DNA of 64,000 nucleotides, from contig NZ_CP047950.1 in the NCBI RefSeq assembly GCF_014280075.1, positions 558,001 through 622,000 of the forward strand, written 5' to 3'. This document shows, in pieces, positions 23,817-39,546 of the stretch (its first letter is position 1; every line of letters begins with the position of its first letter). Source of the stretch: Synechococcus sp. A15-62 (lineage in GTDB: Bacteria > Cyanobacteriota > Cyanobacteriia > PCC-6307 > Cyanobiaceae). Below the pieces are notes generated by a model, which was given only the letters and a program-made list of their open reading frames with translations, was not told the DNA's origin and ran no database searches. Both the position numbers and the translations under genes were made by a program.

Positions 23817-24684
23817 GCTGGCCGTTCTGCCCGTCGAGGCGTGCCATCGCCCCCATGGGTAGGGCTGCGTTGCCGGATCGGTGACCAACGGGCAGGTCCA
23901 TCACTCTGGGAATGCCGAGATCGGCCGTGCGTTCTTCAAGGACCTGCTCAAGCTTGAAGCATTCGGAGGCGTCTCTGGTTTCGTCGGCGCATCCCTCGAA
24001 ATTGCCAAACGCCAGACCCGCCAACCCCTGCAAACTGCCATTCAGCCTCCATTGAGTGAGCATCCGATCAATGCGGTAGGGGGCTTCGCCCACGTCCTCC
24101 AGCACCAGAACGGCTCCTTTGAGGGGGGGCACGAAAGGGCTGCCCAACAGGTGGGTGGCCACGGTCAGATTGGCCACAAGCAGAGGACCGCTCCCCACAC
24201 CGCCGCCGCCGCCACGACCTTGCAGGTCAGGGACGGCGTTGCCGAAGAGCAGGTTGCGCAAACGGTCACGGCTCCAATGCGGCTCCTCCGCAAGCGTTGT
24301 GAGCAAGGGGCCATGGATGCCCCCTGCAAACCCTGCTGCCTGGCGGGCCCAGAGCAGAGCTGTGACGTCGGAAAAGCCCAGCAGCCAGCCGCTCTGCCAG
24401 CGGATGGGCTGCTCCAGCAGCCGAGCAGCCCCCCATCCACCGCGGGCACAGGCCAGCAGCGCTGCGGGTTCGGCCGGATGCAGATCGGCATGACGCGCGT
24501 CATCGCCCCCTGCGAAGTAGCCCCAACGTCGGCTGGCCAAGGTCTGGGGTTGAACATCGAGGCCCCAGCTCTGGAGGACCGCAATGCCCTCCTGCAGCTT
24601 GATGTCGTCCTGCAGGGCTGAACTGGCGCCCACACAGGCCACACGGTCTCCAGTTTTGAGTGGTGGAGCCGGGGTGATCCGCAT
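23800..24684 (-). CDS. Muramoyltetrapeptide LD-carboxypeptidase (peptidase S66)
   Basis: Removes the terminal D-Ala from recycled murein tetrapeptides. S66 features: the nucleophile serine in [11 protein letters not shown], the conserved [18 protein letters not shown], and the C-terminal [18 protein letters not shown] with the catalytic His. 294 residues from ATG 24684, which overlaps the stop of the upstream prenyltransferase (TGATG). ATG 24696 is also in frame. Confidence 0.88.
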
Positions 24685-35852: not shown

Positions 35853-36926
35853 ATGCATGCAGTGCTTGCCCTCGAAACAAGTTGTGACGAGTCCGCTGCA
35901 GCGGTCCTGCGCCGTCACGCTGATGGGCGAATCGACGTTCTGGCGTCGCGGATTGCATCTCAGGTTGAGGAGCATGCCCGTTGGGGTGGTGTGGTGCCCG
36001 AAATCGCTTCGCGCCGGCACGTTGAGGCCCTGCCGGGGCTGGTGGAGGCCGTGGTTGACGAGGCGGGCGTCGCTCTGGGGCAGCTGGATGCCATTGCGGC
36101 CACGATCACTCCAGGTCTGGCCGGGGCTCTGATGGTGGCCTCAGTGACCGGCCGAACCCTTGCCGCGCTTCATCAGCGCCCCTTCCTCGGCGTTCATCAC
36201 CTCGAGGGTCATCTGGCCTCGGTGATGCTTGGAGATGCTCCACCGCAAGCTCCTTATCTGGTGTTGCTTGTGAGTGGGGGGCACACCGAGCTGATTCTTG
36301 TGGCTGAGGACGGCGGGATGACGCGGCTCGGCCGAAGCCATGACGATGCCGCTGGAGAGGCTTTCGACAAGGTGGCCCGCCTGCTCGGTTTGGGATATCC
36401 CGGAGGTCCTGCCATCCAGGCTGTAGCCGAAACGGGTGATGCAACGCGCTTTCGCCTGCCCAAGGGGCGGATTTCATTGCCGGGCGGCGGTTTTCACCCC
36501 TACGACTTTTCCTTCAGTGGTCTGAAGACCGCCATGCTCCGCACCGTGGAAACCCTGCGGCAGACCACCGATCCGCTGCCTCTTGCCGACCTGGCCGCCA
36601 GTTTCGAACAGGTGGTGGCTGATGTTCTGGTGCAGCGCAGCCTTCGCTGTGCCGCAGACCATGGTGTTCAGCAACTGGTGATGGTCGGCGGTGTCGCCGC
36701 GAACCGTCGCTTGCGCCAAAGCATGCTCGAACAGGGAAAGCAGCGGGGCATAGCGGTTTCCATCGCTCCGCTGGCCTTCTGCACCGACAACGCCGCCATG
36801 ATCGGAGCTGCGGCCTTGATGCGTCTGGGCCAGAACGCCGCTTGCACCTCTCTTGAATCAGGCGTTGCAGCCCGCTGGCCTCTGGATCAGGCCAATGCGC
36901 TTTACACACCAGACCCACCCTTTTAG
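35853..36926 (+). CDS. tsaD: tRNA N6-adenosine threonylcarbamoyltransferase
   Basis: Transfers threonylcarbamoyl to A37 of ANN-decoding tRNAs with TsaB/TsaE. 357 residues of the ASKHA fold: [14 protein letters not shown], the metal site HHLEGHLAS (HxxxH), [12 protein letters not shown], and the terminal [14 protein letters not shown]. The stop is followed by a direct repeat CCTTTTAGG (36919-36927 and 36932-36940), the second copy sitting in a weak 5-bp hairpin. Confidence 0.95.
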
Positions 36927-37145: not shown

Positions 37146-38183
37146 TCAGCTTCGGCCCCGCAGGGCCTGAGCCAGCTCGTTGGGCTTGAGGCTGACGGCC
37201 ACCGCTTGATCGCCGTCAATTCGATCCGCCTCCACCAGGGCCAGCAGCGATTGATTGGTGGTCACCATCCCATCGAATCCACTGCGTTCCATGATTTCCT
37301 CCACCTCATCGAGCGCCCCCCGCTGGATGTAGTCCTTGCAGGCATCGGTGTTGATCAGGATGTCGTGATACGCAGCCCGTTTTCCATCTGTTGTCTTGAT
37401 CAAGCCCTGGGCGATCACCCCCAGCAGCGACTTGGATAACGAACGGCGAACACTCTCCTGCTCTTCAGGCGGATACATGCCGAGGACCCGTTCCACGGTT
37501 TTCACAGCTGAATTGGTGTGCAGCGTCCCGAACACCAGGTGGCCGGTCTGGGCCGCTTCAAGGGCCGTGGAGAGGGTTTCCTGATCCCGGATTTCGCCCA
37601 CCAGAATCACATCGGGATCTTCCCGCAGGGCTGCCCTCAGGGCGTTGTGGAACTTGAGAGTGTGCGACCCCACTTCCCGGTGCCGGATGAGGGATTTGCG
37701 GCTCTCATGCACGAACTCGACGGGATCCTCGATCGTGAGGATGTGGCGTGCCTCATTGCGGTTGATCCAATCGATCATCGCCGCCAGGGTTGTGCTCTTG
37801 CCAGACCCTGTCGGTCCGGTGACCAGGATCAGTCCCTTCGGCCGGGCGGCGAGGCTCTGCAGCACGCTGGGGAGATGCAGCTGCTCCATGGTGAGGATCG
37901 TCTGCGGAATGAGGCGCAGCACCATGGCCGGGCCTCGCAGGGAATCCATCAGGTTGATGCGCACGCGCACGAAGGGGAAGGCATGGGAGCCGTCAAATTC
38001 CTTGTCGCGGTTGAAGCCATCGATCTGCTGTGGCGTCAGGATTTCCTGGAGCCATCCCTGAAAGACCTCGGCGTGGGTGACCGGCCATTCCGTGCCTTGC
38101 ATGTCTCCCCGGGCCCGGTAGCGCGGGACTTCCCCCACTCCGAGGTAGACATCGGAATGGCCTGCATCATGGGCGATTCGCAC
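37146..38183 (-). CDS. pilT: Type IV pilus retraction ATPase (PilT), N-terminus apparently frameshifted
   Basis: AAA+-type secretion ATPase that depolymerises type IV pili. Walker A GPTGSGKSTT, Asp box ILTIEDPVEFVH, Walker B DPDVILVGEIRDQETL and His box (TGHLVFGTLHTNSA) are intact. The only usable in-frame start is GTG 38183, but the same frame is open and PilT-like further upstream (SPSLEEI before the GTG) with no start codon. A GTG at 38320 in the neighbouring frame joins it through a C7 run (38298-38304). One missing C there would explain the break, giving about 392 residues. Confidence 0.88.
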   Translation of the reverse strand: MRIAHDAGHSDVYLGVGEVPRYRARGDMQGTEWPVTHAEVFQGWLQEILTPQQIDGFNRDKEFDGSHAFPFVRVRINLMDSLRGPAMVLRLIPQTILTMEQLHLPSVLQSLAARPKGLILVTGPTGSGKSTTLAAMIDWINRNEARHILTIEDPVEFVHESRKSLIRHREVGSHTLKFHNALRAALREDPDVILVGEIRDQETLSTALEAAQTGHLVFGTLHTNSAVKTVERVLGMYPPEEQESVRRSLSKSLLGVIAQGLIKTTDGKRAAYHDILINTDACKDYIQRGALDEVEEIMERSGFDGMVTTNQSLLALVEADRIDGDQAVAVSLKPNELAQALRGRS

Positions 38184-38433
38184 GATCTCCTCGAGGCTTG
38201 GAGAGCCAGAACCATGCGCAGCGGCCCTGGGCGCCGGGTTGTGAACCTCCCGAGATCGTCCTGAACTTTGGCCGGAGGTTGGGCGCGGCGGGAAGCTGGG
38301 GGGGAAACCGGCTGAGCCACGTTGATGGCAAGGGATCTGTCTTCAGGATCGTCTCGATGCTGGAACTGGCAAGGATTTCTCACTGTTCTCTCCGGGTTGA
38401 CGCCCGTAAACTCCAGCGGTCCGTCTGGATGGA
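38184..38433. other. Gap between pilT and wecB; probably holds the true pilT N-terminus
   Basis: A 250-bp stretch without a complete ORF in standard calls. On the minus strand 38184-38320 reads as a proline/arginine-rich N-terminal extension of PilT split between two frames. The remaining 38321-38433 should carry the divergent promoters; I see no convincing consensus. Confidence 0.5.
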
Positions 38434-39546
38434 ATGGCTGAACAGCCCCGCGTCACGATCGTTCTGGGAACGCGTCCGGAGGCGATCAAGCTGGCTCCGG
38501 TCATCCGGACGTTTCAAGCCTGTGATGCATTGCAGACCCGTGTTGTCCTGACCGGTCAGCACCGCGAGATGGTGGGTCAGGTGATGGATCTGTTCCATCT
38601 CCAAGCGGATCAGGATCTCAATCTGATGGCCCCCCGGCAGACCCTGACCCATGTCACCTGTGCTGCGCTGCAGGGGCTGCGGGAAGACTTTCAGGCCTAT
38701 CCACCGCAATTGGTCCTGGTGCAGGGCGACACCACTACGGCGTTTGCCGCTGGTTTGGCTGCGTTTTACGAGCAGATCCCGGTTGGTCATGTGGAGGCCG
38801 GTCTGCGCACCGACAATCTTTTGGATCCCTTCCCGGAGGAAGCCAACCGCCGGCTCCTCTCCCAGATCGCGACCCTTCATTTCGCGCCGACGCTCAAGGC
38901 CGAATCCAACCTGAAAGCATCCGGTGTGGTCGGGGAGATCGCCGTGACCGGTAACACCGTGATAGATGCGTTGTTGTTGATGGCGGAATCGGCACCGGAT
39001 GTTCGGTTTGATGGCCTCGACTGGGACCAACAGAGGGTGATCCTCGCCACGGTGCATCGCCGTGAAAACTGGGGTGAGCGGCTAAATGACATCGCTGCAG
39101 GAATGCTGCAGGTGCTTGAGCGCTTTCCCGACACAGCGCTGCTGCTGCCGATGCACCGCAACCCGACGGTGCGTGAACCGCTGCAGGCCCTGCTTGGAAG
39201 CCATCCCCGTGTCGTTCTGACCGAACCTCTCGACTACGACCGTCTCGTTGCAGCGATGAAAGGCTGCTCCCTGTTGCTCACCGACTCCGGTGGTCTCCAG
39301 GAGGAAGCCCCTGCGCTCGGCAAACCCGTGCTGGTTCTGCGGCGCACCACAGAGCGGCCGGAGGCCGTTGATGCGGGAACGGCCCGGCTGGTGGGTACCG
39401 ATCCCGATGTGATCCTGGAAGAGACCTCTCGGCTGTTTGGGGATGCCACGGCCTATCAAGAGATGTCCCGCGCCGTTAACCCCTTCGGCGATGGTCACGC
39501 GAGCGAACGCATCCTTGAGCTTTGTCGCCGACAGCTCGGCGTCTGA
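38434..39546 (+). CDS. wecB: UDP-N-acetylglucosamine 2-epimerase (non-hydrolysing)
   Basis: Interconverts UDP-GlcNAc and UDP-ManNAc for cell-surface polysaccharide. 370 residues of the GT-B-like fold: VLGTRPEAIKLAPVI, QGDTTTAFAA, GHVEAGLRT, ILATVHRRENWGER and LLTDSGGLQEEAPALGKPVLVLR are diagnostic. The 3' end overlaps the next gene by 56 bp if that begins at 39491. Confidence 0.95.
   Translation: MAEQPRVTIVLGTRPEAIKLAPVIRTFQACDALQTRVVLTGQHREMVGQVMDLFHLQADQDLNLMAPRQTLTHVTCAALQGLREDFQAYPPQLVLVQGDTTTAFAAGLAAFYEQIPVGHVEAGLRTDNLLDPFPEEANRRLLSQIATLHFAPTLKAESNLKASGVVGEIAVTGNTVIDALLLMAESAPDVRFDGLDWDQQRVILATVHRRENWGERLNDIAAGMLQVLERFPDTALLLPMHRNPTVREPLQALLGSHPRVVLTEPLDYDRLVAAMKGCSLLLTDSGGLQEEAPALGKPVLVLRRTTERPEAVDAGTARLVGTDPDVILEETSRLFGDATAYQEMSRAVNPFGDGHASERILELCRRQLGV

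Follow-up and report, generated by a model that had tools for sequence, protein, structure and literature searches.

The window studied here, a stretch of 64,000 nucleotides, belongs to a genome of Synechococcus sp. A15-62 that consists of one contig of 2,294,140 bases (G000 from here on; the other G-numbers are the compared genomes of the same genus). It carries a pilT gene whose beginning is divided between two reading frames. The features involved are, in window coordinates:

35853 to 36926, plus strand: a gene that we take to be tsaD-like, the basis of the genus tree.
37146 to 38183, minus strand: the PilT2 core frame read from the internal GTG 38183, 345 amino acids (stop codon within the coordinates), with a match to TIGR01420.
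38036 to 38320, minus strand: the frame from GTG 38320, which starts as the proline-rich N-terminus, passes through the tract, goes off frame and stops inside the core.
38184 to 38342, minus strand: the upstream continuation of the PilT2 core frame, open to a stop and with no ATG, GTG or TTG, coding for a linker and SPSLEEI.
38187 to 38192, minus strand: GAGGAG, a match resembling a Shine-Dalgarno sequence that derives from Glu-Glu codons, a possible chance re-start site.
38298 to 38307, minus strand: the T3C7 tract, junction of the two frames, one base below the in-frame length.
38318 to 38320, minus strand: the GTG that is the counterpart of the pilT2 start of the relatives (VAQPV...).
38434 to 39546, plus strand: a neighbour gene, presumably UDP-GlcNAc 2-epimerase-like, that adjoins pilT2 also in G004, G013, G028 and G029.

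The PilT frame of the minus strand is open over 398 codons, from 38342 to 37146, and the first ATG, GTG or TTG in it is the GTG at 38183, immediately preceded by SPSLEEI. The neighbouring frame from GTG 38320 begins VAQPVSPPASRR... and has its stop at 38036, so that it overlaps the internal start GTG 38183. Between both lies the T/C tract, with three T (38305-38307) ahead of seven C (38298-38304) on the minus strand. The gene is split between frames in the G000 sequence, and the reading of the ORFs agrees with a preliminary description of this DNA, according to which the PilT frame runs upstream of GTG 38183 with SPSLEEI and meets no start before a stop.

The core matched the PilT/PilU profile TIGR01420 with 427.8 bits (cut-off 319.1) over profile positions 7-343 of 343, and it aligned to chain residues 5-335 of the solved PilT 3jvu_A with an E value of 1.3e-84. 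The motif GPTGSGKST, which we take to be the Walker A, is present. Since a distinct pilB-pilT1-pilC locus exists elsewhere in the genome (C1:20-24 kb, with the gene under study at C1:595-596 kb), the gene is the second cyanobacterial PilT, PilT2, a PilT/PilU-like ATPase with a proline-rich N-terminal peptide. This N-terminus (FPPSFPP) is the part that the frame has lost; it is encoded in the DNA of G000, but out of frame with the core. In a search for the family 126 of 151 genomes matched, and among the 30 loci listed (nine from the same genus, including G000) N-termini of the FPP type recur, as VFPPSFPP, VFPPGFPP or SPFPPSPFPP, being weaker in a few. Many cyanobacteria are described, in extracts of PMC12288463, as having a second PilT homologue, PilT2, marked by a proline-rich N-terminus.

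In the relative G033 the frame is unbroken and reads VAQPVFPPSFPPR, then 31 residues closing with SPSLEEI, then VRIAHD and the whole core. When the G033 protein, with its upstream residues included, was used as query of a translated search, the G000 match appeared in two frames with the junction at query residues 50-53. The interval from CAGCCGGT to AGC has 9 nt in G000 versus 10 nt in frame. Among the relatives the in-frame tracts are T4C7 (G033, G030), T5C6 (G002, G026) and T3C8 (G022), so that the G000 tract does not tell whether the missing base is a C or a T. The preliminary description had joined the two frames by one added C: the fusion holds, as G033 reads through, and the C is one choice among several equivalent ones. 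The comparison also bore out its start of the neighbouring frame at GTG 38320, given that the same N-terminus is in frame with the core in G033, and its estimate of about 45 extra residues (about 44-46 in our reading). The tract length, which it had proposed to compare across relatives, is smaller by one base in G000 than in the homologues that read straight on. The frame break is absent from G033 and from G002, the sister of G000.

Of 19 sequences compared at the position of GTG 38183, G000 among them, 18 have GTG, GTT, GTA, GTC or CTG, and the 19th, G004, is unaligned there. By alignment, GTG 38183 is an internal Val or Leu codon in the relatives and no conserved start. It was ruled out as the native start because the codon varies and similarity continues upstream; what the preliminary description had named as decisive against its view, relatives starting at GTG 38183 and devoid of upstream similarity, is the opposite of the strong upstream similarity found. 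In G023 and G008 there is an in-frame stop a little upstream, and the counterpart of GTG 38320 is the first ATG, GTG or TTG after it.

The rest of the type IV pilus (T4P) machinery of G000 is damaged as well. With G033 as reference, pilB lacks 1 nt and pilT1 has 1 nt inserted, both genes being left in two frames, and a deletion of 196 nt has taken away the last part of pilT1 together with the first part of pilC. At this locus, outside the window (G000:C1:20284-24355, L035 10284-14355), the end of pilT1 consequently runs on, without a change of frame, into pilC at about codon 40. The secretin search of G000 gave no match. Between genes that we take to be pyrD-like and murG-like, pilMNOQ is gone save for a pilM stub of 81 codons (C1:2104676-2105012, L225), by comparison with G033, where pilM, pilN and pilO were named by position, their family matches being weak or none. 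The sister G002 also lacks pilMNOQ, with end points other than those of G000 and no pilM stub, and its pilB and pilC are broken by different lesions, with pilT2 in frame. In G033 (L109 2015-5755) a protein of 1247 residues with repeats of the ELWxSDGT type adjoins pilM, and G000 has no DNA match at the site. A competence gene of the comEC type (G000:C1:740263-741057, L229) has a frame of 633 codons in G000 and G002 and looks intact despite the broken pilus; G004, G027 and G028 have it in fragments, and its frame is shorter (476) in the T4P-complete G033.

We searched 34 genomes of the genus and kept the 19 with a completeness of 90% or more and a contamination of 5% or less. The machinery was considered complete when pilB, pilT1 and pilC were unbroken and a secretin was present, which applied to G005, G006, G007, G008, G022 (counted for its pilMNOQ-like DNA at the usual pyrD-like/murG-like site, its only secretin sitting near a second pilus cluster), G023, G030 (secretin counted as present, its frame of 803 codons matching only positions 39-168 of the 169 in the model) and G033. 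The pilT2 gene was intact in all eight of these genomes versus 1 of the 11 incomplete ones (Fisher p 1.2e-4, or 4.1e-4 without G000), where incomplete refers to the main pilBTC set, as a secretin does occur in G003, in a second pilus cluster of another kind. Among those 11, the frame is broken in G000, G001, G003, G004, G021, G024 and G027, the core is deleted in G013 and G028, which keep only the ends of the gene, a weak match is all that G029 has, and G002 is the one with an intact pilT2. The tsaD tree gave three independent pairs on starred (well-supported) branches, all of them in agreement (3/3, p 0.25), and with only three usable pairs no significance is attainable. The link of pilT2 loss with loss of the machinery is consistent and phylogenetically thin, and we call it suggestive because only these three pairs were testable on the tree. 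A second, shorter pilB (frame of 547-599 codons) was seen in G003, G014, G015, G016, G019 and G022, apparently in a pilus cluster of its own; the main pilB is kept alongside it in G016 and G022, and not in G003.

The tract has changed length in other decayed copies of the gene. Frame-changing intervals were found in five of them: 9 nt in G000, G027 and G015, 12 in G024 and 14 in G028. In G028 (L212, about 2797-2952) and MU1642 (L154) the core of pilT2 is deleted, the ends remain and the tract has grown to eleven C; the sequence is identical in the two, which may be one genome. Counted by the state of the gene, 5 of 11 broken copies have an off-frame tract and 0 of 16 unbroken ones (p 0.006), a comparison that is partly circular because unbroken means in frame, the unbroken set being 16 of 26 pilT2 loci and including G023, G008 and G025, flagged for a stop upstream of the start, and G010, with unknown bases. 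Dividing the genomes by their machinery is fairer, and gave, where the tract was readable, 4 of 9 incomplete genomes out of frame versus 0 of 8 complete ones (p 0.08). The tracts of G032 and G011 were read by eye.

A T/C run close to the 5' end, with frame-changing lengths in G000, G015, G024, G027 and G028, is also what phase variation would use, slippage in the tract switching the N-terminus of PilT2 on and off across the population. However, the eight T4P-complete genomes are all in frame, with the incomplete ones out of frame in the 4 of 9 above, a homopolymer is not preserved in the tract of the intact relatives G005, G006 and G007, and with pilMNOQ gone there would be nothing left in G000 for a switch to act on. 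Moreover, runs of this length are ordinary. Over 400 kb, G000 contains 23 stretches of G or C that are at least seven long, versus 90 expected from neighbouring-base frequencies, and none reaches nine; these runs are ordinary yet avoided in this genome. The window holds three more runs of seven G or C, at 24123, 25416 and 26265. We consider phase variation very unlikely. A broader version would make the tract a contingency site of the lineages with a working pilus, where slippage would reversibly part the peptide from the ATPase and tune retraction in a fraction of the cells, with G000 and the other four decayed copies caught or fixed in the off state while losing the pilus; to this we give a similarly small chance.

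The fused protein could also be produced from the split gene by programmed ribosomal frameshifting or transcriptional slippage, and re-pairing on the C7 might be possible in principle. This explanation, offered in the preliminary description as programmed frameshifting, does not fit because the region is in a single frame in each of the eight relatives whose machinery is complete. Besides, no Rfam family was matched at the gathering score between 36500 and 39600. Its probability is close to nil.

An error of sequencing or assembly, by which one base of the T/C run was dropped from a gene that is intact in the cell, is another explanation. A T3C7 run is a typical site of such errors, the core is free of stops and the tract of the sister G002 is in frame. 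Compared with 100 kb of G033, G000 had 3 breaks in 88 genes, pilT2 being one of them, versus 1 in 92 in the reverse direction (p 0.36). Yet against G002 frame breaks were not in excess over the 400 kb that surround the window, with 5 junctions in 306 genes and 5 in 309 in the reverse direction, which leaves a poor assembly as the whole cause unsupported. The five breaks of G000 comprise pilT2 and one G5/G6 case, both in runs of at least five, and three outside such runs; the four that are not pilT2 lie at C1:417.5k, 632.2k, 656.4k and 730.8k, and some are possibly genuine pseudogenes. Neither are the large lesions of pilT1/pilC and pilMNOQ errors of base calling, and the tract length is altered too in the decayed copies of G027, G015, G024 and G028, known from their assemblies alone. 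An error at this single base is, in our opinion, unlikely, though less so than the two kinds of frame switching considered above.

Nonsynonymous and synonymous changes of the core were counted by branch. With G002 as sister, the G000 branch had 3 nonsynonymous to 9 synonymous changes and no stop, and the G002 branch 4 to 5. Pooled, these two branches (7:14) differ from five T4P-complete branches including G022 (14:143) with p 0.005 (0.002-0.005 across poolings). The G000 branch alone gave p 0.08-0.11 against the T4P-complete branches, the value being 0.11 with G022 in the pool; without the G022 branch (3:9 in one trio, or 5:26) the pool is 11:134. If G033 or G022 is taken as the sister, the G000 branch becomes 3:25 or 3:29 (p about 0.7). 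Several broken copies are nearly as constrained as intact ones (G024 5:34, G021 4.5:28.5, G001 6.5:28.5, G003 9.5:36.5), and the only clearly relaxed copies are G027 (20.5:26.5) and G004 (77.3:33.7). The ratio separates broken from intact copies poorly, because G022 gave 3:9 and several broken copies stay low. The counts of the G000 core would suit a recent break.

The same figures bear on a shift of the start site, by which the gene would now be expressed from GTG 38183 and work without its proline-rich N-terminus. The stop-free core, with 3 amino-acid changes versus 9-29 silent ones depending on the sister, counts in its favour, GAGGAG stands ahead of the codon and, by alignment, only about the first six residues of the solved PilT would be missing. 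But relatives do not keep this codon as a start, the proline-rich N-terminus recurs throughout the genus and, in looser form, in the loci listed for the family, and the pilus on which the ATPase would act is broken. We regard this shift as unlikely too, marginally more so than a base-call error.

Our preferred explanation, to which we assign a probability of about 75%, is that the break of pilT2 is ordinary gene decay in a genome whose type IV pilus machinery is already broken. It explains the break better than sequencing error, phase variation or programmed frameshifting, the three mechanisms put forward in the preliminary description, which was right about the anatomy, the tract and the extension and omitted decay from its list. 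In favour of decay, pilB, pilT1, pilC and pilMNOQ are broken or missing in the same genome. Against it, the sister G002 still has an in-frame pilT2 with pilB and pilC broken and pilMNOQ absent, the G000 core is free of stops, the G000 branch by itself is not significantly relaxed, and comEC looks intact in G000. Under decay, the pilus would have been lost first, relaxing selection on pilT2, and a slip in the T/C tract, probably a weak point of the gene, would then have broken it. A ribosome starting at GTG 38320 would make 94 residues and depart from the PilT2 frame on reaching the tract. The most that could arise besides is an ATPase re-started at GTG 38183, after the chance GAGGAG, that lacks the proline-rich peptide and about six of the first residues of the PilT fold.

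The case is of modest weight: marine Synechococcus is known to lose T4P, and this is one more example, a partly decayed one. It suggests that the second retraction motor goes along with the rest of the pilus machine, and it hints at the order of the losses: pilMNOQ is gone and pilB and pilC are hit, differently, in both G000 and G002, and pilT2 is off frame only in G000. For annotation, pilT2 starts in the relatives some 44 codons ahead of the start codon that remains in the PilT frame of G000.

The gene resembles the cyanobacterial PilT2 in being a second PilT outside pilBTC, with an FPP-type N-terminus and a PilT/PilU core, and differs from it, as far as extracts of PMC12288463 describe it, in that the N-terminus of G000 is out of frame with the core. 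The loss of T4P in marine Synechococcus is already published, and the case of G000 looks like another instance. According to PMC7994388, clades II and III of Synechococcus carry pilA1 less often (44% of 18), and strains without pilA have the pilus apparatus absent or partly lost. The likeness is this absence or partial loss in some marine picocyanobacteria; the markers used in the extracts are PilB, PilC and PilQ, and these extracts contain nothing on decay of pilT2 or on the type of lesion. The extracts of PMC7994388, PMC12288463 and PMC10068330 contain no description of the pilT2 tract. A frameshift in a cyanobacterial pilus gene has a precedent in Synechocystis GT-Kazusa, where, according to an extract of PMC10068330, one in pilC abolishes competence. 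That strain is a laboratory substrain, whereas here several lesions are found in one genome and the losses extend across the genus.
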